The notes below the pieces were generated by a model. The model was not told the DNA's origin. It ran no database searches and was given only the letters and a program-made list of their open reading frames with translations. The position numbers and the translations under genes are program-made. A stretch of 64,000 nucleotides of DNA from Rhizobium leguminosarum. GTDB taxonomy: Bacteria; Pseudomonadota; Alphaproteobacteria; Rhizobiales; Rhizobiaceae. This document shows positions 52,330 to 63,826 of the stretch, one piece after another; position 1 is the stretch's first letter; each line of letters starts with the position of its first letter. The DNA lies in contig NZ_LWBS01000263.1 in NCBI RefSeq assembly GCF_001652265.1, forward strand, positions 11,015-75,014, written 5' to 3'.

Positions 52330-54453
52330 CTATTCGGCCGCGATCACATGCATGTCGATCTCGGCTGGCTCATCTTCGATCTCCGGCTCGGTTTCCGCCA
52401 TGGCCGTTTCACCGCCATCTTCCGCCGTGTCTTCGATTTCATGATCGCCGGACTGACGAGTCTCGGCAGGCGAGGTGTCGTCTACCGCGGTGACCGGGTG
52501 GCCGGGCGTGCGCAGCGGCTCTGGCAACCAGCCGGACCCGGCGAGCAGTTCCTGCGCCTTTTCGGCCATGTCGCCCTTCTTGAGGTGCTCGATGCGATCA
52601 CCGGCGCGCGTACCCTTCACCTCGCGCACCGACGCGAGGATGCGGGCCTTGGTGACACGGCCGAGATAGGTGTCGATCGTGGGCTCCCACCCGGCTGCCA
52701 CCATGTCGAGATCGACCGCCTGGGCCAGCTGGTCGGCGTGGGCGAGCGCACGAGGCCGACGGTTGTAGGCCTCGTAGATCGCGTTGACCGACAGCGACAC
52801 GCAATGCGCAAAAAGGCAGTGGCGGCTGTCGCCGTCGAACGCCTGCAGCGCCTCCCACAGCTCGCCGGGCTCCTTGGGGAGCGCCGCCACCCACGCCTGA
52901 TGGCGGCCGTCTACTGCCAAGGCCAGGCTGCTGTCATTGAGACTTGGCGCCTGCGTGCCGAAACTGACGCTTTTCAGGTCGAACTCCAGGCAGGTATCCG
53001 AGCCATAGTGATAGAAGGCCCGAAGCGTGAGCGCATGGAGCGCGGCGAGGAAGGCGACATCGGGCCGCTCGCCGAGCGCATGGCGCAGAGCCAGCGTGCG
53101 ATGGGCGGTCAGTTCGGTCATCAAGCGGTCCGGGATCGGCTTCAGGCCGTCGTCTTCCTCAGGGTCCGGTGTCGTTTCGATGTCCGCGGCAAGGTGATCG
53201 TCCTCATGCTCGGCGCGCGCCGCGATGGTGTTGACGCCGTCCTCGATCTCGGGATCAACTTCCGGCTCAATCGGCCGTTCGTCTTCTGGGCGGACATAGC
53301 CGCGCTCGACCCGGAGGTTGCCCGATCCGTCGATGCAGACGAAAGCGCCAGCCCGCGCGATCTCCTCGGGGTCGAAGACCATCGGCCGATCGTCGAGCGC
53401 GCTGATCGCTGTCTCGATCTCCGCGAGCCGTTCGTCCACCTCGTCGGGCAGATCTTCGGCCTCGGCATAGGTTTCCTCCAGGGCGTCCAACTCGGCCTGA
53501 AGGGCGTCGCGCGTGGCCTGTTCCTCCTCGGTGAGAGGGAGTTGCTCGCCACGGAGGTGACGCAGGCCGTAGGTGTGGCCGTAGGGGAAGTCCGGCGCGA
53601 CATCGATCCACTTCCAGCCTTCGGCGGAGATCGCCTCGGACTGCTCACGCAGCTTCTCGGCCACCAGCATGTCGAGAAGACCGACATCGTGCAGCCAGCC
53701 GCCGTCGTCACCCTGGAACAGGTCGTGCATGATGACGCCCCCAGCTTCGGTGTAGGCTTCCACCCCGACGAACTGCGCACGCTTGTCGGCGGCGCGGACC
53801 GCGCCCTCGGTGAGCATCCGGCGTATGAGATGCGGTTCCTTACTGTAGGCCTGCGCAAGGCGCTCGAAGACCTGTTCCTGCCGCTCATGATCGCCGTTGA
53901 CGGTGAACGCCATCAACTGATCGAGAGTCATGCCGTCGGCGGCATAGACGTCGAGGAGCTTGGGCGAGATCGACGCCAGACGCAGGCGCTGCTTCACGAC
54001 CGAGACCGAGACGAACTGGTTGGCGGCGATCTCCTCTTCGGACATACCCTTCTCGCGGAAGGTCAGGAAGGCACGGAACTGGTCCAGCGGATGCAGCGGG
54101 GCCCGCTGGATGTTTTCGGCCAGCGAATCCTCCTCGGCCATGCCGCCCTCGCGGACGACGCAGGGGACTGGCGCGTTCTTGGCGAGGCGTTTCTGCTTCA
54201 CCAGCAGTTCAAGCGCCCGATAGCGGCGGCCGCCGGCCGGGATCTCGAACATGCCGGTCTCGTTGCCGTCCGCATCGCGCACGGGCCGCACGGTGATGCT
54301 CTGGAGGAGAGTTCGCCGGGCGATGTCCTCCGCCAGCTCCTCGATCGACACACCGGCCTTGATCCGCCGGACGTTCGCCTGGGAGATGACGAGGTGGTTG
54401 AAGGGGATGTCGCGCGACGACGACAGGGTGATCTTTTTCGCAGCAGTAGCCAT
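52330..54453 (-). CDS. ParB/RepB/Spo0J-like nuclease-domain protein
   Basis: A large ParB-like protein of 707 residues. The N-terminal ParB domain shows LVISQANVRRIKAGVSIEEL, FEIPAGGRRYRALELL and the helix-turn-helix MSEEEIAANQFVSVSVVKQR. The C-terminal 400 residues are acidic and helical, much longer than chromosomal ParB. Such proteins are typical of ICE/plasmid accessory regions next to DUF932 genes. The ATG at 54453 has GGAG nine bases upstream; an in-frame ATG five codons earlier coincides with the end of the conserved leader hairpin. It probably acts in DNA protection or maintenance after transfer. Confidence 0.93.
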   Translation of the reverse strand: MATAAKKITLSSSRDIPFNHLVISQANVRRIKAGVSIEELAEDIARRTLLQSITVRPVRDADGNETGMFEIPAGGRRYRALELLVKQKRLAKNAPVPCVVREGGMAEEDSLAENIQRAPLHPLDQFRAFLTFREKGMSEEEIAANQFVSVSVVKQRLRLASISPKLLDVYAADGMTLDQLMAFTVNGDHERQEQVFERLAQAYSKEPHLIRRMLTEGAVRAADKRAQFVGVEAYTEAGGVIMHDLFQGDDGGWLHDVGLLDMLVAEKLREQSEAISAEGWKWIDVAPDFPYGHTYGLRHLRGEQLPLTEEEQATRDALQAELDALEETYAEAEDLPDEVDERLAEIETAISALDDRPMVFDPEEIARAGAFVCIDGSGNLRVERGYVRPEDERPIEPEVDPEIEDGVNTIAARAEHEDDHLAADIETTPDPEEDDGLKPIPDRLMTELTAHRTLALRHALGERPDVAFLAALHALTLRAFYHYGSDTCLEFDLKSVSFGTQAPSLNDSSLALAVDGRHQAWVAALPKEPGELWEALQAFDGDSRHCLFAHCVSLSVNAIYEAYNRRPRALAHADQLAQAVDLDMVAAGWEPTIDTYLGRVTKARILASVREVKGTRAGDRIEHLKKGDMAEKAQELLAGSGWLPEPLRTPGHPVTAVDDTSPAETRQSGDHEIEDTAEDGGETAMAETEPEIEDEPAEIDMHVIAAE

Positions 54454-54465
54454 GGGAATGTACTC

Positions 54466-54545
54466 CATGACGGGCGGCCGAGAGCCTCTCTCTCGACCTC
54501 CAACCCGTCACGAAGCGAAGCGCCGCCCTCTTCCTCTAAAGGGGG
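54466..54545 (-). promoter_or_regulatory. Conserved structured 5' leader of ParB-like gene
   Basis: Reading the minus strand, an outer 7-bp stem TGACGGG/CCCGTCA (54504-54510 / 54468-54474) encloses a 9-bp inner hairpin (54490-54498 / 54476-54484) with loop AGAGG. The last outer-stem base is the A of an upstream ATG. The same architecture with different inner-stem bases is found before the DUF932 gene (55838-55916). Upstream of both is a GAGGAAGAGG box. Confidence 0.78.
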
Positions 54546-54628: not shown

Positions 54629-55825
54629 TCAGATCGCTCGGTCGAGCAGCTTCTTGGCCTTGGCCTCCATGTCGAGGCGAGCGTCCTGATGGGGTTTGTC
54701 GCGGGCGACGGCGGTGATGCCCTGCACGAAATCGAAGATGCTCTCCGGCGGGCGGCCTTCTTCGGCCAACACCGCGTCGATGATCTTGCCGGTTTCCGCT
54801 TTGGAGAAGCCGCGGCGGCGCAGGAAGTCTGTGCGATCCTCGTCGCTGCGCGCCACGATCCGCTCGCGCGCCGCCCTGATGCCGTTGACGAAAGGCAGTG
54901 GCGAGGAATTGGCAAAGTTCGCCAGCGCTGGAGCCGCCTCATGCGCAAACCGGTTGGCGGCGTATTTGCTGTGCCGGATGGTGATTTCTTCGAAATCCTC
55001 CACGCCCCACAAATTGCGATTCTGGCAGACCGCGCGCAGATAGAAGCTCGCCATACCAAGTGTCTTGGCGCCTACTTCGGAATTCCAGCAGTAGAAGCCC
55101 CGGAAGTAGAGATCCGGCGAGCCGTCCGGCAGACGGCCGGCTTCGATCGGGTTCAGGTCATCGACGAGGAAGAGGAAGACGTCCCGATCCGAAGTATAGA
55201 GCGTCGTGGTGTCTTTGGTGATGTCGACGCGGGGATTGTAGATGCCCGTCGACCAGTCGAGCACGCCGGGCACTTTCCAGCGTGTGTCGCCCGTGCCGTT
55301 GCCGGCAATGCGTTGCACGGCCTCGACCAGTTCATGATCGTAAATGCGGCCGTAGTCCGGGCCGGTGACGGCGCGCAGTTCGACACGGCCATTATCAGTT
55401 TCCAGCGTCTTGATCTGCTCGGCCCGATTGGACGTCAGGCCATATTGCAGGTTGATCGCGGCGAGCGGCGCGGGCAGCTGGCGCAGATAGGCTGCTGGCG
55501 CGCCGACCAGGCTCGCGAGTTGGCCGAAGCTCCAATGGGTCGGAGCGATGGGCGTATCCGCGCCTGGCAGGATCAACGCCAGCCGTTCCGGGTCGCTGCG
55601 GTTCGCCTCAACATGGATCAAGGCGCTTTCCACCACGCGCGTCCGGCTGCGATCGGCGCGATCACGGACGGCCCGGGCCAGCTCGGACAGCGACAGGTAG
55701 CGCTCGTCTGCGGGCCGGGAAAACCATTCCGACGAGACGCGGCCGATTCGCTCGCCGCGGCCGACATCCACTTTGTAGCCGCCGCTGGTGTCGCGGCGCG
55801 CGTCGAGAACTGAAACTTGGGTCAT
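54629..55825 (-). CDS. DUF932 domain protein
   Basis: A 398-residue DUF932 protein, a phage/plasmid-type family (YfjQ/YafZ-like). Family segments include HWSFGQLASLVGAPAAYLRQ, YLRQLPAPLAAINLQYGL and GFYCWNSEVGAKTLG. Function unknown; DUF932 proteins are often encoded with ParB-like proteins in transferable elements. I start at the ATG at 55825, which has GGAG nine bases upstream; an in-frame ATG five codons earlier overlaps the leader. Confidence 0.92.
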   Translation of the reverse strand: MTQVSVLDARRDTSGGYKVDVGRGERIGRVSSEWFSRPADERYLSLSELARAVRDRADRSRTRVVESALIHVEANRSDPERLALILPGADTPIAPTHWSFGQLASLVGAPAAYLRQLPAPLAAINLQYGLTSNRAEQIKTLETDNGRVELRAVTGPDYGRIYDHELVEAVQRIAGNGTGDTRWKVPGVLDWSTGIYNPRVDITKDTTTLYTSDRDVFLFLVDDLNPIEAGRLPDGSPDLYFRGFYCWNSEVGAKTLGMASFYLRAVCQNRNLWGVEDFEEITIRHSKYAANRFAHEAAPALANFANSSPLPFVNGIRAARERIVARSDEDRTDFLRRRGFSKAETGKIIDAVLAEEGRPPESIFDFVQGITAVARDKPHQDARLDMEAKAKKLLDRAI

Positions 55826-55837
55826 GGGACCAATCTC

Positions 55838-55916
55838 CATGACGGGCGCCGGAGACCTCTTCTCCAGCCCTCAACCCGTCACGGCAAAGCCGGTCCGTCC
55901 TCTTCCTCTCAAAGGG
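55838..55916 (-). promoter_or_regulatory. Conserved structured 5' leader of DUF932 gene
   Basis: Minus-strand outer stem TGACGGG/CCCGTCA (55875-55881 / 55840-55846) is identical to that of the ParB-like leader. The inner 8-bp hairpin (55861-55868 / 55848-55855) has different bases but pairs fully (one G-U) and has the same AGAGG loop. Spacing between stems and to the ATG-GAG and second ATG is nearly identical. It may be an RNA control element, a protein-binding RNA hairpin or an attenuator. Confidence 0.78.
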
Positions 55917-55925
55917 GCGTTGCGG

Positions 55926-56174
55926 GGCCTCCCGCAGAAGGGGTCGACCGAAACGCAAGGCTCGGACGTTGGGGAAGACTTTCCCCTTTCGGTAAATCCG
56001 TGAATGTCTGCAAGATTGCTGCGAGCATTTGCGCTACAACTGTAGAAATACTGAAATGAGTTCAAGGGTGGGATGAGTGCGCATTCGACGATTGAGGATT
56101 TCGAGTATTCGGGGGATGTCTGAGGATCGTGTGTATTTCGCCGATCATCCGCGGCACCGGCGGCGGATGGGCGC
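55926..56174. other. Divergent intergenic region before defence island
   Basis: About 250 bases between the DUF932 leader and the first plus-strand island gene. A GGGGAA/TTCCCC palindrome (55971-55986) could be an operator. The stretch from 56000 to 56120 is AT-richer and probably carries the promoters of both directions. No gene is seen. Confidence 0.45.
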
Positions 56175-57743
56175 ATGAGGGGCGCCGAATTCCCGACGCC
56201 GTCAGCACCGTCGCGTAAGATTTCCGGGGAAGACGCAAGGTCGTTGATTGAAGCCCAACTGGCCGCTCATGGTGACGGCGTTCTTGCCGTCCTTGGGCGA
56301 TATCGGCTGGCGGATGCCGTGGCTGCCTGGCACGGGACCATCCGCGCCGTCGAGGAGTTCATCAACCTTCCCCGGTTCGGCATCGACGATCCGCGTGTGA
56401 GGGCACGGCTTTGTTCGATCCCTCTCGACGATCGGCTGCTGTCCAATGTGGAGTCCGTCTTCCGGGCCGTTCGGGAGATATTGTCCCCGCGCTTCGACGC
56501 CGACGTCGTCGGCCGTTACCTCCAGACGATGTTGCAGACCGCCGCCATCGCCAGCGCGTTCAAGATGCACGGGCAGGCTTTCGGACCCGGCATTACGCTC
56601 GACACCGTGGGCGCGGCCGTTGACTATTTCCAATCGCGCCGCCGGCACATGGTCTCTTTGCTCTACACCATGCCCTTCGCGTGCAAGGGAACAGACCGGC
56701 TCGTGCCTCTCGACACACTGAATGTCCTTCTGCCCCAGGTCGAGCATAGCTGCATCACGATTACGGGCTTCCACCTGAAGCTGGCCCAATTGGACATTCT
56801 CGACGACTTCAGCCTGGAGGCTGACGGGATCGGAGCGATGGCCAGCCACGGGTTCGACACGCTCGATGAGAATTTCCTGGAGCCGGAACGGGCGTCCATC
56901 CATGTCATGGCCGAGCTTCGTCGAGATCAGATTGTGTTGCCAACGATGGAGGCGCTCGATCCGAAGAAGATTTTTTCAGCGGCCGAGCTGCGAAATTCGG
57001 TGAGGCTGATCGGCGCGACCTACGCGGCCTTCGGGCTGAACGATTCCGATTTCTCGACGATGGCGCTGTTGATGATCGCCTTCGCGCGTCATGCCCCCGA
57101 CGACTATTTCGTCGAGATCGGAAAGGCGAAATTTCAAGCGATGCTCCGGGCACAGTCGGTTCTCGACCCAGACGAACTCGAACGGCTGCTGGTGAACGTG
57201 CCCTCTGACCACGCCACCAACAGCAATGCCTATGAGCCGTTTATCGACGCTGGCGATATGGTGGTCTCGAACGTCAACCTGCTGTCGCGTTTCCTGTATG
57301 CCTTCAAGAACGTCCACCTGGGCAGCCGCCGGCGCTTTCAAATCCATGCCGGCTTCATCTTCGAGGATATGGTGAAGCGTGACCTGTCCGTCATGGGTTT
57401 CCAGGTGACTGACGTGAAGCGCATCAACCGCAAGGAATTCGACGTCGTCACTATCCACGGCGGCGTGATCTATAATTTCCAATGCAAGAACAACTGGATC
57501 GACCTGGCAAAGGTCGAGTCAAACCGGGCCCTGTTCGTCCGCTACAATCGGTCTCTGACCAACTACTATCGCCGCGCGCTTCAAAAAGAGCGCAGGCGTG
57601 AAGGTTTGCTCAAGGACAAACTGGGTCTCGATAAGGTGGAGCATTACCTTATCAGCCGCTTTCCGGTGATCGGGTCCGACGCCCGGGTCATCAACTACAA
57701 TCAGATTGACCGTTTGAAGGCGGTCGTTAGGGGCGCCGCTTGA
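56175..57743 (+). CDS. Putative PD-(D/E)xK-like nuclease protein (island gene 1)
   Basis: A 522-residue protein of no family I recognise. The N-terminal 370 residues are mostly helical. The C-terminal part has the look of a restriction-endonuclease fold: FIFEDMVKRD (Glu397), then KEFDVV (Asp423), a beta-strand and FQCKNNW (Gln436, Lys438), i.e. D-x12-QxK, the active-site pattern of Mrr/VSR-like PD-(D/E)xK nucleases. No signal peptide. It overlaps the next gene by four bases (TTGA), so the two products probably interact. First gene of a five-gene plus-strand island. Nuclease activity is inferred from the motif only. Confidence 0.72.
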   Translation: MRGAEFPTPSAPSRKISGEDARSLIEAQLAAHGDGVLAVLGRYRLADAVAAWHGTIRAVEEFINLPRFGIDDPRVRARLCSIPLDDRLLSNVESVFRAVREILSPRFDADVVGRYLQTMLQTAAIASAFKMHGQAFGPGITLDTVGAAVDYFQSRRRHMVSLLYTMPFACKGTDRLVPLDTLNVLLPQVEHSCITITGFHLKLAQLDILDDFSLEADGIGAMASHGFDTLDENFLEPERASIHVMAELRRDQIVLPTMEALDPKKIFSAAELRNSVRLIGATYAAFGLNDSDFSTMALLMIAFARHAPDDYFVEIGKAKFQAMLRAQSVLDPDELERLLVNVPSDHATNSNAYEPFIDAGDMVVSNVNLLSRFLYAFKNVHLGSRRRFQIHAGFIFEDMVKRDLSVMGFQVTDVKRINRKEFDVVTIHGGVIYNFQCKNNWIDLAKVESNRALFVRYNRSLTNYYRRALQKERRREGLLKDKLGLDKVEHYLISRFPVIGSDARVINYNQIDRLKAVVRGAA

Positions 57744-58432
57744 AGTCCGATCCAGCCAAAGTCATCCATCTCCTGTCGGAATTCACCGGGCCGGATCTCA
57801 CCCATACGCTCGGGCGAATCGAGGGGGCCGTGCGGGGGATATCGGCCGACGACTGCGACGCCTTCCTTGAAGGGGCCGGTGCTGGTCGCGAAGTGCTTGC
57901 CGCGGCCGCCGAGATGAAGCGCTTGGCGGGTCAGATCAATGTGACGATCCACGCGCTGGGCATCCTACTGTGCCTGCCGCACATTCTGGAGCCAGGCGAG
58001 AAGGTCGAATATGTCTCGCTCGGCGCCGGCAATACAGGTCGGGAATTCGATCTGGAGACAAACCTGCGGGTGGCGGAGTTCAAGTTCATCCGCTGGCGCG
58101 GCGGCGCGGAATCGATCCGACAAAACTCCGTCTTCAAGGACTATGTCCTGCTGGCGGAGCATCTGACACCCAAGCGGAAATACTTGTATTTGCTGGGCAC
58201 CGAGCATGCTCTGAAATTCCTCCACGGCGGCCGGGCGCTTTCCAGCGTGCTCAGCCGGAACGACAAACTGCAGAAGATGTTCTCCGAGCGCTTCGACGGC
58301 CAATTTCGGAAGGTTCGCGACTATTATGCTGTTCATGGAGATGCGGTGCAGATCGAGGATGTCTCGGCATGGCTTTCGGAACTGGCGGAGGTGCTGATCA
58401 TCGAGCCGGTCCCTGACGATCTCATAGAGTGA
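57740..58432 (+). CDS. Putative PD-(D/E)xK-like nuclease partner (island gene 2)
   Basis: A 230-residue protein that starts at a TTG overlapping the stop of gene 1. I do not recognise the family. Around residues 102-118 it reads REFDLETNLRVAEFKFI: Asp104 and the ExK pair Glu113/Lys115 fit the PD-(D/E)xK core (acid, beta-hairpin, ExK). The stretch YLYLLGTEHALKFL after it resembles the following strand and helix. With gene 1 this gives two nuclease-like subunits made in fixed ratio. Activity and target are unproven. Confidence 0.7.
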   Translation: MKSDPAKVIHLLSEFTGPDLTHTLGRIEGAVRGISADDCDAFLEGAGAGREVLAAAAEMKRLAGQINVTIHALGILLCLPHILEPGEKVEYVSLGAGNTGREFDLETNLRVAEFKFIRWRGGAESIRQNSVFKDYVLLAEHLTPKRKYLYLLGTEHALKFLHGGRALSSVLSRNDKLQKMFSERFDGQFRKVRDYYAVHGDAVQIEDVSAWLSELAEVLIIEPVPDDLIE

Positions 58433-58624
58433 CTGCCGCAACGTCCAAGCTCTATGAAATGCGCTCGAAGCGGATATCGCGGTCAATTCATCTTCTTTAC
58501 CCGCCTCCAAAATCTTTAAGGCGCTGAATGCATAGAACTTTGATAATCGATGCTGTAGTAGAAAAATAGGTATCAATGACGTTTTGCGTGTATTGCGTTT
58601 TATTGAAGACGGGAGAGGAAGTAA

Positions 58625-59131
58625 GTGGCGAAGACGACAGACGAGGCGCACCGGAAGACGTCGAAGAAACCATACAACGAGCGATCTGATCTTGAGAAAC
58701 TTCAATCGCAATGGAACAAACTTTCCGGCCTTCATCTGAGGGATGAACCGTCCGCTGCGATCGTGCGCTGCGCGACCGCTGCTGAAATCGCCGCGAACTA
58801 CGCCATCAGAACGGAATGGGCTCGTCAGACCGAGTTCGACGCGGCGATCGTCGATCAATTTTTGCGATGGGCCAACGGTCTCCAGCTCAAGGTCTCGCGT
58901 CTATTTGTGCCAATTTACTTCGCTCGTCCCGAGAAGAGTAAAACCGGGAAGGCGCTCATCAAATCTGCTGATCGGATCAATTCCGTGCGGAACGCTGTCG
59001 TACACCAGGGGGCGTTCAGTAATGCAGAAGAGGCCGAGGCGGCGATTTCGGAAGCGAAGACGTTCATCAACCTGATCGTCGGCCTTTCCATTCCTGGCTT
59101 CGATATCGCGGCCAAGGTGACTAGCAAGTAG
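58625..59131 (+). CDS. Putative HEPN-domain protein (island gene 3)
   Basis: A 168-residue helical protein with the HEPN signature near the C-terminus: SVRNAVVHQGAF, Arg122-x4-His127. HEPN proteins with this RX4H motif are often RNases in abortive-infection, toxin-antitoxin and CRISPR systems, or they bind such enzymes. It starts at a GTG with GGAGAGGAAG upstream. It follows a 190-base AT-richer gap after gene 2, so it may have its own promoter, and precedes gene 4 by about 20 bases. Confidence 0.68.
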   Translation: MAKTTDEAHRKTSKKPYNERSDLEKLQSQWNKLSGLHLRDEPSAAIVRCATAAEIAANYAIRTEWARQTEFDAAIVDQFLRWANGLQLKVSRLFVPIYFARPEKSKTGKALIKSADRINSVRNAVVHQGAFSNAEEAEAAISEAKTFINLIVGLSIPGFDIAAKVTSK

Positions 59132-59153
59132 CGCACGAGCTTTGGGGGGACGA

Positions 59154-60467
59154 ATGAGCGCTTTGATCTCAATGGGAGAGTTGTGGGACGTCGACGTCAC
59201 CGTCGGCCTGACCACCCATACAAAGCATCGGCACGTTCCCAGCCCGGTAACACCGCTCTTCCAGGCGCCCGGAGCCGCGCCGGCTCTGACCTTCGGACCG
59301 ATCGCGTTGGCCGCGGCCGTCGCCAGAACGGCGACGACGCGCCCAGCGCGACCGCGACTGCTCGCCGGTCTCCAGAAAAGCGCGCTCGCCCATTTGGAAT
59401 GCCTGATCTCGAACGGGTCGTCGTTCGAGCTGACACCGGACTTTGCTGACTTGGCCGACACCGAGAGAACGCTGTTCACTGCGCGCTGTGGAGCCGGGAT
59501 AACGGATCTCTATATGAACGCCTTGGGGTATGTCTGGCGCGCCAACGCAGCTTGCCTATCAAAGGCGCTCAACCCGCATGCGGATTTTCTTTATGATGGC
59601 GGGAATGTCGATGGGCACGGCGTGGTTTTGGCCGAAGCGCACGGTTCGTTCGCCGCGAACGCGACCGCAAAGACCATCGCTTCTCAGGCGAAGCGAAAAT
59701 ATGCCCGACAGGTGAAGCCCTACGTCAACACGGGGTCAACGTTTGGCCATGTCGTCCACGGCTACTCCGTTGCCTTTGGCTCGAAGCCGGGAACGACAGG
59801 CGCATTCCTGAGTGTGGCCGAGACACGGATTTCGAAGCCCAAGAAAAAGTCTCCGCCGGGGCCCTCTGGCCAATCGCCCACCGGCAGCGGGGTTTCTAGG
59901 CCGATCGCGCTGGCGACGCACCGCTCGAACTTCTTTCTTATGGGTGCGAGCCATGTCGTCGATTGGATTGACTGGATCGGCGCGCCGGGTGAGTTGCTGG
60001 TGGATTCCGGACCGGTTGCCTTTGTTCGGTTGCCCTATGCCGGGCGTTGGTATCTCGGAAGCGCCTTTTCGATCTGGCCGGCTTTACACCCCCACTGGTG
60101 GCACGACGGACTCTGGGACGATCCGATGTGGCGGCACCACGCTGTTCGCGAGGTGATGGCCAGGGGTTTCCCGGCCGAGTCGGTTGGCTGGTTCGTCATG
60201 GAGGAGACGGCCTGTGCGGCGTTCCTCAACGGTCTCACCGGTATGATCCGGAGCGGCGGCGGCGATGGTCGTCCAGAGCGGCTCGACCTACCCACCTTCG
60301 ACCCCGTCGGCTTCGGTATTGGTGAGGGTAGCCGCAGCCGGCGCGTTGATGGCTCCGAGTATAATTACGCGCTGTTTCGCGACGGCCTTGCGCTGCTGGG
60401 CGACCCTTTCCGTTCACGCAAACTCGAGATGAGACGGTGGTCGCCCAAAGAGGGATTGGAGGGCTAG
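59154..60467 (+). CDS. Uncharacterised island gene 4, altered nuclease-like motif
   Basis: A 437-residue protein of unknown family. In the middle it reads ADFLYDGGNVDGHG then VLAEAHGSF: an Asp (144), a beta-strand and E161-A-H163. In many PD-(D/E)xK proteins this segment is EAKGS; here the lysine is histidine, which would leave a weakened or specialised active site. A Lys/Pro-rich linker (ISKPKKKSPPGP, near residue 225) separates it from a C-terminal half rich in Trp and His (WYLGSAFSIWPALHPHWWHD). The ATG at 59154 has GGGGGGA upstream; a TTG four codons earlier is less likely. Confidence 0.66.
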   Translation: MSALISMGELWDVDVTVGLTTHTKHRHVPSPVTPLFQAPGAAPALTFGPIALAAAVARTATTRPARPRLLAGLQKSALAHLECLISNGSSFELTPDFADLADTERTLFTARCGAGITDLYMNALGYVWRANAACLSKALNPHADFLYDGGNVDGHGVVLAEAHGSFAANATAKTIASQAKRKYARQVKPYVNTGSTFGHVVHGYSVAFGSKPGTTGAFLSVAETRISKPKKKSPPGPSGQSPTGSGVSRPIALATHRSNFFLMGASHVVDWIDWIGAPGELLVDSGPVAFVRLPYAGRWYLGSAFSIWPALHPHWWHDGLWDDPMWRHHAVREVMARGFPAESVGWFVMEETACAAFLNGLTGMIRSGGGDGRPERLDLPTFDPVGFGIGEGSRSRRVDGSEYNYALFRDGLALLGDPFRSRKLEMRRWSPKEGLEG

Positions 60468-60534
60468 CGGCATTGCACACGATTCGACGATCGCTACACG
60501 ATAGGGTAGCGCGAAAGACAAAAACGGGGGGAGC

Positions 60535-63513
60535 ATGATTAGTCGAGGGTCGGAATGGCGCCGCTGGGAGCCACACATCCACGCGCCCGGTACGGTGATG
60601 AACAACCAGTTCACCGGCCCGACGGCGTGGGAGGATTATCTATCCGCGCTTGAGGTTGCTGCGCCCGTCATCGAGGCGATCGCCGTTACTGACTACTATG
60701 TCACCGAAACCTATCAGCAGGTGTTGAAGTACAAGGCTGCCGGGCGACTGCCGGCGGCGTCGCTGGTATTCCCGAACGTCGAATTGAGATTGGACGTCGC
60801 GACCGCCAAGGGAGGGTTCGTGAACCTCCATCTGTTCGTGTGCCCGGAAGACGCGGACCATATTGCAGAACTGCAGCGCCTGCTGTCGCGGCTGCACTTC
60901 ACCATGCAGCAGGATCGCTACGACTGTACCCGTGCGGACCTGATACGGCTGGGAAAGAAGGCCGATCCGACCATCGTCGATGACGGCGCGGCGCTGGCTT
61001 ACGGCGCGAACCAGTTCAAGGTCAATTTCAGGCAGCTACGCGAGGTGTTCGGCGAGAGCGGCTGGGCCAAGAAGAATATCGTCATCGCCGTCGCGGGCGG
61101 CGCCACCGACGGGACGTCAGGCGTGAGGGAAGCCGCCGACCAGACTATACGGAGGGAGATCGAAGGCTTCGCGGACGTAATCTTCGCCAGCAGCCAGGCA
61201 CAGCGCGAGTTCTGGCTTGGGCAGAGGGATCTGGACCCGAAGGAGATCCGCGCCCGATATGGCGGCCTGAAGCCGTGTCTCCATGGCAGCGACGCGCACA
61301 AACTCGAAGACGTTGCGACGCCGTTCGGCGATCGGTTCTCGTGGATCAAAGGCGGGCTCGAATTCGACTCCCTGCGGCAGGCCTGCATTGATCCGCGCGG
61401 ACGCGCCCATGTCGGTGCCGAGCCGCCGACATCAGCGACGCCGTCACAGGTCATCTCGGAGATTCAGATCGTCGATGCGCCCTGGCTGCAGACGCCGACC
61501 ATTCCTTTGAATGCCGGCCTCGTCGCCATCATCGGCGCGCGAGGGTCGGGCAAGACTGCGCTCGCCGACATGATCGCCGCCGGATGCGATTCCATATCGG
61601 ATGAGGCCTGGGCCGCCGACGAATGGGCGAACCCTTCGTTTCTCGTGCGAGCGCGGCCCCTGATCGGTCAAGGCAAGGTGAAGGTCAGTTGGGCGGCTGG
61701 CGATCCAAGCACGCGGTCGCTGGACGGATCGGATGCCAACGGTCCGATGAGCTATCCCCGCGCGCGCTACTTGTCGCAGCAATTCGTCGAGGAGCTGTGC
61801 TCGTCGAGCGGCCTGACCGACGGGCTGCTCCGTGAGATCGAACGGGTGATCTTCGAGGCGCATCCTGATCATGATCGGGATGGCGCCCTCGACTTCGCGG
61901 AACTGCTGGAACATCGCGCCTCACGCCATCGGTTGGCGCGCGATCGCGAGGCGGAGGCTGTCTCCCAGATATCGGAGCGCATCAGCACCGAACTCGAGAA
62001 GGAAAAACTGGTCGCAAGCTATGAGGCTCAGGTTGCCCAGAAGAAGAAGCTGGTCGACGCCTATACCGCCGATCGCGCGAAGCTTGTCTCCGCTGGGAGC
62101 GAAAAGAGGGCCCAGCGCCATACGGATATCGCCGCAGCGACCAACCACGTCAGGAGTACGTTGCGCCAGTATACGAACCGACGTCAGACGTTCCTCGCCC
62201 TTCAGGATGAGGTGAAGGACCTGCGGCGCAACCAGGCGCCGGAGGCTTTGCGACAGACGCAGTCGAGGCACACGCACAGCGGAATGTCCGAGGAGCAGTG
62301 GGCCGCGTTCATCCTCGATTATAAGGGTAAGGTCGACGATAACCTCACCGGCTACGTCAAATGGGTCGATGGAAAGATAGCCGAGTTGAAGGGGACTTCG
62401 CCGGCCCCCGGAGACCCGAACACCGCATTCTTCCCTGACGATACGGACCTCTCGACGCTATCGCAGGCGGTGTTGGAGGCCGAAATGGCGCGGCTGGAAA
62501 AGCTGGTCAGCTCCGACAAGGAGACCCAACGGCAATACACCGCGCTGTCAGGCCGGATCGCCACCGAGACGGCCGCCATGCAAACACTCACCGGCAAGCT
62601 GGATGACAGCAAGGGCGCGAAAGATCGCGCGCGGGACCTGCAGACCCAACGCGAAGAAGCCTATGGCAGGGCCTTCGACGCCCTGGTCGCCGAGCAAACC
62701 GTCTTGAAGGATCTATATGGGCCGCTGATGGCGCGTTTGGCGGCGGCGTCCGGAACGTTGAAGAAGCTGTCGTTCTCGGTGGCGCGGGTCGCCGATGTCG
62801 CGCAATGGGCGGGTCAGGCCGAGGAGGGATTGATCGATCTCCGGAAGGGCGGGGCGTTCAGGGGCAAGGGCACTCTGCTTCAGAAGGCGAACGAGGTTCT
62901 CAAGCAGGCGTGGGAGACGGGCTCGTCCGCTGAGGTGGTGTCGGCAATGGCAGAGTTTCGTCGGCTCTATCAGAAGGAATTGCTCGATCATTCGCCGGTT
63001 GCCCACACCGAGCAGGCGGAATTCCGGGCCTGGTCGAAACGGTTCGCCCAATGGCTGTTCAGCACGGATCACATCGATATCCACTATGGCATCGAGTACG
63101 ATGGTGTGGATATCCGGAAACTGTCACCTGGAACCCGCGGTATCGTCCTTCTGCTGCTCTACCTAGCGCTGGATGACGGTGACGGCAGGCCTCTGATCAT
63201 CGATCAGCCGGAGGAGAACCTTGATCCGAAATCTGTCTTCGAGGAGTTGGTGGGCCTGTTCATCGAGGCCAAATCGAACCGCCAGGTCATCATGGTGACG
63301 CACAACGCGAACCTGGTGATCAATACCGACGCCGATCAGATCATCATTGCCGAGTCGGGGCCGCATCCGCACGGCGCGTTGCCGCCGATCACCTACCTGT
63401 CAGGTGGCCTGGAGAACGCGGACATCCGAAAGGCAGTTTGCGACATATTGGAAGGTGGTGAAGGCGCCTTCCAGGAGCGGGCCCGCAGATTGAGGGTCAG
63501 GTTGGAGCGGTAA
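60535..63513 (+). CDS. PHP-domain / SMC-like ATPase, Ppl/TrlF-like defence protein (island gene 5)
   Basis: A 992-residue protein. The N-terminal PHP (polymerase and histidinol phosphatase) domain has EPHIHAPGT (His14, His16), VTDYY and HGSDAH (residues 250-255), metal ligands of a phosphoesterase. The second half is an ABC/SMC-type ATPase: Walker A GARGSGKT (334-341), a long coiled coil (about 470-740), signature LSPGTRG (863-869), Walker B PLIIDQPEENLD with Asp890 and the H-loop IMVTHN with His923. This layout matches the Ppl defence proteins of Gao and colleagues and TrlF-family ATPases. GGGGGGAG precedes the ATG. Probably senses phage DNA or its ends and cuts nucleic acid; role here is inferred. 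Confidence 0.85.
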   Translation: MISRGSEWRRWEPHIHAPGTVMNNQFTGPTAWEDYLSALEVAAPVIEAIAVTDYYVTETYQQVLKYKAAGRLPAASLVFPNVELRLDVATAKGGFVNLHLFVCPEDADHIAELQRLLSRLHFTMQQDRYDCTRADLIRLGKKADPTIVDDGAALAYGANQFKVNFRQLREVFGESGWAKKNIVIAVAGGATDGTSGVREAADQTIRREIEGFADVIFASSQAQREFWLGQRDLDPKEIRARYGGLKPCLHGSDAHKLEDVATPFGDRFSWIKGGLEFDSLRQACIDPRGRAHVGAEPPTSATPSQVISEIQIVDAPWLQTPTIPLNAGLVAIIGARGSGKTALADMIAAGCDSISDEAWAADEWANPSFLVRARPLIGQGKVKVSWAAGDPSTRSLDGSDANGPMSYPRARYLSQQFVEELCSSSGLTDGLLREIERVIFEAHPDHDRDGALDFAELLEHRASRHRLARDREAEAVSQISERISTELEKEKLVASYEAQVAQKKKLVDAYTADRAKLVSAGSEKRAQRHTDIAAATNHVRSTLRQYTNRRQTFLALQDEVKDLRRNQAPEALRQTQSRHTHSGMSEEQWAAFILDYKGKVDDNLTGYVKWVDGKIAELKGTSPAPGDPNTAFFPDDTDLSTLSQAVLEAEMARLEKLVSSDKETQRQYTALSGRIATETAAMQTLTGKLDDSKGAKDRARDLQTQREEAYGRAFDALVAEQTVLKDLYGPLMARLAAASGTLKKLSFSVARVADVAQWAGQAEEGLIDLRKGGAFRGKGTLLQKANEVLKQAWETGSSAEVVSAMAEFRRLYQKELLDHSPVAHTEQAEFRAWSKRFAQWLFSTDHIDIHYGIEYDGVDIRKLSPGTRGIVLLLLYLALDDGDGRPLIIDQPEENLDPKSVFEELVGLFIEAKSNRQVIMVTHNANLVINTDADQIIIAESGPHPHGALPPITYLSGGLENADIRKAVCDILEGGEGAFQERARRLRVRLER

Positions 63514-63826
63514 AGGGGGCCGGTTCGTCAGCGTCGGCCTCGACGTACGTGTTCAGCCAAGCGGGACGGCCATCCTGGCGACGTTGGAAATCGTAGGAGG
63601 TCGTCGTCGAGTGGAGGATCGTCATCGACGGTCCATGAACGACGTATTCCCCATCGTCCAGATGCACATGGGTTATGCCGGGAAACAGCGCTTCGTCTGC
63701 CGGGTGAAGCGCTTGTGGGTTGTGAAACAGGATAAGCTCATCGGACCACCCCTCGGCATAGGCGGGGCTCTCGACGTCAATCTTAAAAGGGACGGCGCTG
63801 GCCACGCCGGCCGCCGGATCAATCAA
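63497..63826 (-). CDS. Hypothetical protein
   Basis: A 109-residue protein with PFKIDVESPAYAEGWSDELI, FHNPQALHP and VHLDDGEYVVHGPSM; I do not know the family. The 3' end overlaps the convergent PHP-ATPase gene by 17 bases. The frame stays open 25 more codons upstream to an ATG at 63901, but that part reads through a repeat-like segment. I prefer the TTG at 63826, with AAAGGG upstream. Its 5' end may have been altered by the repeat. Confidence 0.55.
   Translation of the reverse strand: MIDPAAGVASAVPFKIDVESPAYAEGWSDELILFHNPQALHPADEALFPGITHVHLDDGEYVVHGPSMTILHSTTTSYDFQRRQDGRPAWLNTYVEADADEPAPFTAPT

Follow-up and report, generated by a model that had tools for sequence, protein, structure and literature searches.

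The window, the whole 64,000-nucleotide stretch analysed here, carries a cargo region (56175–63513) of five plus-strand genes, g1 to g5, all present in the window's list of open reading frames. As the first-pass annotation had reported, they run opposite to the surrounding ICE genes, and they are flanked by minus-strand genes for a DUF932-like and a ParB_N-domain protein (Table 1). The window backbone is similar to plasmid regions that carry the annotations trbE, trbB, trbL, traG and VirD2-type relaxase (a Trb-type element), so the ICE setting holds. The GC content is 0.54–0.60 over 56000–59500, compared with 0.63–0.67 in the backbone shown, and the contig stops 487 bases 3' of g5, at the same point as the window. 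Of the spacings given earlier, the 4-base overlap of g1 and g2 and the 67 bases between g4 and g5 are correct, whereas the reported 20 bases correspond to a measured g3–g4 gap of 22. The gap between g2 and g3 is possibly the start of a second transcription unit (g3–g5). Promoter and terminator scans of the locus returned chance-level matches only, including the one promoter-like match in this gap (58540–58567).

Table 1. Features of the locus and blocks of homology with related loci (window coordinates)
Feature	Position	Strand	Description
ParB_N-domain gene	52330–54468	−	ICE backbone; domain match
DUF932-like gene	54629–55840	−	Left flank of cargo site; weak match to PF06067, 17.7 bits (cut-off 23)
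g1	56175–57743	+	522 aa; N-terminal all-helical region (about 14–380), predicted C-terminal PD-(D/E)xK nuclease (396–518)
g2	57740–58432	+	230 aa; PD-(D/E)xK-like by motif; TTG start; 4-base overlap with g1
g2–g3 gap	58433–58624	+	192 bases; purine-rich stretch immediately 5' of g3
g3	58625–59131	+	168 aa; HEPN-like; R122-N-A-V-V-H127
g4	59154–60467	+	437 aa from ATG (441 from upstream TTG)
g5	60535–63513	+	992 aa; TrlF-family AAA-like ATPase; NF045780, 701 bits, residues 4–986
A. vaccinii block	57651–63823		End of g1 to past g5
Rhizobium sp. NZLR1 p5 (L004) block	58603–63506		g3-g4-g5 only
Shinella block	58638–60466		g3-g4
Brucella daejeonensis/Rhizobium subbaraonis (L023/L024) block	58631 to 60478 or 60471		g3-g4 only
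Agrobacterium rubi pW2_73_1 (L047) block	60526–63512		g5 only
L021/L022 blocks	from 51224/51159 to 60697		Flank, g1–g4, break inside g5
Breakpoint inside g5	60697		Homology to L021/L022 stops; short g5 fragment remains there

All five genes are under purifying selection. Of 25 dN/dS comparisons (Nei-Gojobori), three were saturated and many others had dS above 1; 22 gave ratios of 0.03–0.36, which by gene were 0.16–0.17 (g1), 0.05–0.18 (g2), 0.03–0.06 (g3), 0.11–0.36 (g4) and 0.03–0.05 (g5). At E ≤ 0.001, the candidates scored included 430 homologues of g1, 2121 of g2 and 377 of g4. Because homologues are this numerous and dN/dS is low, g1–g5 are not chance ORFs. The ratios, highest in g4 and lowest in g3 and g5, are compatible with g4 acting in recognition and g3 in catalysis, without proving either. 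In a class sample of 385 genomes, including the window's own, g4 was present in five (one match marginal, E 9.8e-4) and g2 and g1 in three each. Scanning 84,980 species genomes yielded six g4 loci. Order-level surveys of g2 found it in 0 of 36 genomes around G380, 0 of 82 around G051 and 1 of 4 around G318, the last already known. Among 72,556 plasmids, g4 occurred on 9, g1 on 7, g2 on 10 and g3 on 12, several of these matches being partial.

Analysis of the predicted structure of g1, together with motif counts, placed D and E/Q-x-K on adjacent strands of an alpha-beta core, as in the PD-(D/E)xK superfamily. The motif residues are E397, D423 and Q436-C-K438, and D/QxK is kept in 98/98 homologues; for g1, g2 and g4, motifs were counted in the long sequences among the best 120 matches of each gene. 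For g2 the assignment rests on its motif D-x8-E-x-K: D104, E113, K115, R127, Q128 and N129 are invariant in 120/120 of the best homologues. These conserved motifs and the 4-base overlap bear out the earlier description of g1 and g2 as two coupled PD-(D/E)xK-like proteins, in the case of g2 by motif only.

The pairing of g2 varies among loci. Of 12 distinct g2 loci, three have g1 upstream (the window, L021 and L022), two have a gene for an ExK protein of about 170 aa (motif PDLIV-x9-LVVEVKK) overlapping g2 by 4 bases (L043) or 20 bases (L044), and seven show other partners or none (L002, L033, L034, L045, L046, L052 and L053). The best 120 homologues of g1 and of g2 had seven contig sizes in common, compared with 0–2 in eight shifted controls, and g1–g2 adjacency is also suggested in Bradyrhizobium SK17 and Roseitalea, where the homologues bear neighbouring locus tags. 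Viral contigs were found to carry homologues of g1 (one contig) and g2 (two), and none of g3 or g4. On one of them (L053:5077-6657) a g2 relative lies directly 3' of a gene for a CI-like, S24-type repressor, an arrangement as for prophage-borne defence genes.

The predicted structure of g4 (AF2 model, pLDDT 81.3, pTM 0.86) suggests a PD-(D/E)xK-like core with D144, E161-A-H163 and an invariant K182 on the next helix, followed by a C-terminal half (250–437). D144 is present in 109/109 and E161 in 108/109 homologues, and position 163 is H in 98/109 and R in 11/109, in place of the lysine of E-x-K; the EAH variant noted earlier for this 437-residue protein is thus real, and most of its relatives share the histidine. 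Profile comparisons (g2 against g1, g2 against Upx, g4 against g2) revealed no relation, so a shared ancestry of the three nuclease-like proteins lacks support. The gene g3 lies directly upstream in 8/9 loci whose g4 is at least 68% identical, the ninth (L025) being broken, and in 0/8 loci whose g4 is at most 57% identical, counts that omit the marginal match L015. The window's own genome holds a second, distant g4 relative (G000:C452:882-1818; L016, L017 and L038), which is broken (44–56% identity, internal stop). In two other loci (L030:7698-8678 and L032:7149-8192) a YspA-like SLOG-domain (YAcAr) gene is convergent with a distant g4, an assignment made by scanning L030, with whose gene that of L032 clusters.

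As described earlier, g3 is a small protein with the R-x4-H motif of HEPN proteins and a weak HEPN match: RN-x3-H occurs in 11/11 aligned g3 sequences, of which 10 match HEPN_Swt1 weakly, the window copy scoring 16.5 bits against the Pfam cut-off of 27.5. Among 13 g3 loci, a count that leaves out the plasmid matches H31 and H35–H37, g4 follows in eight, in two (L039 and L040) the next gene encodes a 467-aa protein annotated HEPN and overlaps g3 by 4 bases, and three have neither (L041, L042 and L050), with L042 and L050 adjoining IS21. The g3 relatives in L041 and L042 adjoin Qat genes; small HEPN genes may be recurrent companions of Qat.

In the libraries searched (Pfam, NCBIfam and PADLOC 2.0), genes 1–4 match no named system, as had been claimed. 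No family match was obtained for g1 or g4 in these three (PADLOC at E ≤ 1), and g2 had no family in Pfam, PADLOC or PHROG and only a chance-level match in NCBIfam. PHROGs returned nothing for g1, g2 or g4 and a best E of 0.018 for g3, for which PADLOC 2.0 gave CARF_HEPN fragments only (E 0.03). Searches of the PDB gave nothing or chance-level matches with g1, its alignment and one distant relative, with the g3 and g4 alignments and with g5; the g2 alignment and profile search gave chance-level matches only, and structure comparison with Foldseek alone yielded no PDB match of use for either g1 or g4. Searches of the open-licence PMC literature on TrlF, Ppl, Upx and two-gene HEPN systems turned up no paper naming the g1–g2 or g3–g4 pair; one may still exist.

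The fifth gene had been read as a PHP-SMC ATPase like Ppl and thereby as a known single-gene defence type, and both statements have to be revised. The product of g5 carries two PHP-like motifs, HIH (from 14) and GSDAH (from 251), a Walker A motif (GARGSGKT, 334), LSPGTRG (863) and a Walker B motif (IIDQPEENLD, 888). Its score against the NCBIfam TrlF family NF045780 exceeds the cut-off of 350 over nearly the full length, whereas Ppl (NF042955/PDLC02208) scores 110.9 bits against a cut-off of 1000, with the best stretch in the C-terminal ATPase part only; Ppl was therefore rejected. The family is presumably named after Photorhabdus TrlF. According to PMC7554251, the temperature-restricting locus of Photorhabdus is trlR-trlF-trlG and includes a RecG-like helicase, and the suppressor mutations described there fall mostly in trlG and none in trlF. 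Since g5 is a TrlF and Photorhabdus TrlF sits in a three-gene locus, the single-gene statement applies to Ppl and would not automatically extend to TrlF.

Alignment of the window with related loci revealed that homology blocks end at or near gene limits (Table 1). These borders separate g1–g2, g3–g4 and g5, and the proposal that all five genes are inherited together, as one unit, was discarded on this ground. The same DUF932 flank occurs in L021–L024 and other genomes. In L023 and L024 the shared DUF932/ICE flank ends at 55943, and g3–g4 begin about 275 bases later, so g1–g2 are absent from the same site; SIR2-HerA follows instead. The cargo thus appears to consist of three modules gained and lost separately beside the DUF932/ParB pair. 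The DUF932 protein was found in 8/318 genomes, the window's own included, and eight additional sites with it were retrieved, of which L070 is largely masked and L076 only 2 kb long; none of them holds g1–g5, SIR2, HerA, GajA, GajB, AbiEii or the LmuB-like protein of L021. At one, L074, type I restriction R and M genes adjoin the DUF932 site, and L075 is alike by ORF reading only. These comparisons support a variable cargo site beside DUF932, but only partly a hotspot dedicated to defence.

Known defence genes lie near some of the homologues, in agreement with the earlier view of nuclease-like modules, here with conserved motifs, in several defence-rich settings. In the subset of neighbours scanned with PADLOC, Gabija and AbiE adjoin distant g4 copies (L005 and L031), a helicase-like defence match lies near g4 (L026), Gabija adjoins g1 (L008), an LmuB-like protein lies near g1 (L035) and SIR2-HerA adjoins g3–g4 (L023/L024); neighbours scanned in L009 and L036 had no PADLOC match, and the annotation of L007 shows no defence neighbour. 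In L005 (6504-9359), AbiEi-AbiEii is followed by the distant g4 with a 4-base overlap. The right cargo of the g1–g4 ICE of Sandaracinobacteroides (L021:12321-17256) comprises an LmuB-like ATPase and a PDC-S73-like protein. A plasmid island of Bradyrhizobium 2S1 (NZ_CP147719.1:250154-273043) combines CBASS, AbiV, HEPN/Toprim, TrlF and a distant g4 that an IS3-type insertion has split. Homologues of the five genes mostly occur apart, which counts against a five-gene unit, and where neighbours were identified they do not lie outside defence islands.

We consider the locus to be an ICE cargo site with three separable modules, namely the nuclease-like pairs g1–g2 and g3–g4 and an independent TrlF, g5, with a probability of roughly 0.6. 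Most likely, each pair is a two-gene, nuclease-based candidate for defence that the libraries searched do not name, and both are stacked next to the TrlF gene. We infer their anti-phage function, complex formation, sensor and effector roles and substrates as follows. In the first module, the translationally coupled g1 and g2 would assemble into a heteromeric DNA endonuclease and cleave the DNA of invaders; this is the simplest reading because the proteins are coupled, their motifs are intact and a second ExK gene overlaps g2 in L043 and L044. In the second, the small HEPN-like g3 would be the RNase effector, and the faster-evolving g4, without the usual lysine, either a sensor or an altered nuclease, which would release the activity of g3 when infection occurs; the opposite assignment of the two roles is also a candidate. 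In the third, g5 would act independently as a TrlF PHP-ATPase.

A grouping into two systems, g1–g2 and g3-g4-g5 with TrlF as motor or sensor and the HEPN and EAH proteins as effectors, seems to us rather unlikely. It resembles the fallback of the first-pass annotation (genes 1–2 and 3–5), which stands in so far as g3–g5 occur together on two other plasmids: the block shared with Rhizobium NZLR1 p5 comprises them as a unit, and they are together in A. vaccinii. The close spacing (22 and 67 bases) fits as well, as do a g4 (48.7%) and a TrlF (57.2%) about 11 kb apart on one Bradyrhizobium 2S1 plasmid. However, g3–g4 lack an intact g5 in five loci (intact g3–g4 without g5 in L003, L023 and L024, and a g5 fragment only in L021 and L022), g5 alone forms a block in L047, and TrlF covering at least 80% of the query occurs on 48 of the 72,556 plasmids against nine for g4, three of which are among the 40 TrlF matches listed.

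With comparable reserve, the pairs may be regarded as two defence systems without a name, whose nuclease subunits can be exchanged, with g2 changing partners and g3–g4 acting on both RNA and DNA. Here, g2 would plug into g1 or the ExK protein of about 170 aa to give heteromeric DNA endonucleases, g4 would represent a new PD-(D/E)xK class with His/Arg for lysine, K182 perhaps standing in, and g3 would be an RNase with a swappable partner.

Somewhat less probable is a role outside defence, as addictive, toxin-antitoxin-like stabilisers or as genes of ICE transfer or regulation. HEPN proteins are often toxins, and both the g4 that overlaps AbiEii in L005 and the g2 beside the CI-like repressor on a viral contig would suit such a role. 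Against this, known defence systems lie nearby in several unrelated loci, a restriction system is among the cargo at a related site (L074), and the nuclease motifs of g1 and g2 are intact, which is unusual for stabilisers. A single five-gene system of cooperating nucleases is very improbable: the five genes are co-oriented in the window, A. vaccinii keeps g2–g5 together and L021 and L022 keep g1–g4 plus the g5 remnant, but among the fetched loci only the window holds an intact copy of each of the five, the block borders lie between the modules, 192 bases separate g2 from g3, and in G318, a genome of the class sample, g2 and a distant g4 are on different contigs.

If the pairs protect, the three-module locus holds two small nuclease-based defence systems unnamed in the profile libraries searched and offers a natural case of partner-swapping nuclease subunits. 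Compared with known systems, g5 agrees with TrlF in family score and with Ppl in its PHP-like motifs and SMC-type ATPase end. Photorhabdus TrlF has trlR and trlG as neighbours, whereas g5 has g4 upstream and no trlG in the only 487 bases before the contig end. HEPN abortive-infection and toxin proteins (Swt1-like, RiboL-PSP) share with g3 the R-x4-H at the predicted active site; g3 differs in being small and stand-alone, with a window copy below the Pfam cut-off, and the next gene encodes g4 or the 467-aa HEPN protein instead of a nucleotidyltransferase antitoxin. The PD-(D/E)xK nucleases EcoRV, HincII, Mrr, Hjc, Cap4 and McrC resemble g1 and g4 in motif order and, for g4 only putatively, in predicted core, and g2 by motif only; unlike these named nucleases, g1, g2 and g4 belong to whole-protein families absent from the libraries searched. 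Where they have E-x-K, g4 has EA-H/R, a variant fixed in 109 aligned relatives that would test the limits of active-site drift in PD-(D/E)xK enzymes. The best match of the predicted g1 structure is the C-terminal half of Upx (PADLOC PDLC02221; PDB 9wuf), which, like Ppl, reportedly comes from Gao et al. 2020. Both share the helical plus PD-(D/E)xK architecture, with sequence similarity below significance, and the PADLOC Upx profile (1271 positions) finds no match in the window's own genome at E ≤ 10. Upx has 1272 residues, about 750 of them upstream of this half and lacking in g1, and it carries ExK where g1 has QxK and is coupled to g2. If g1–g2 protects, the nuclease half of Upx has a free-standing counterpart in g1.
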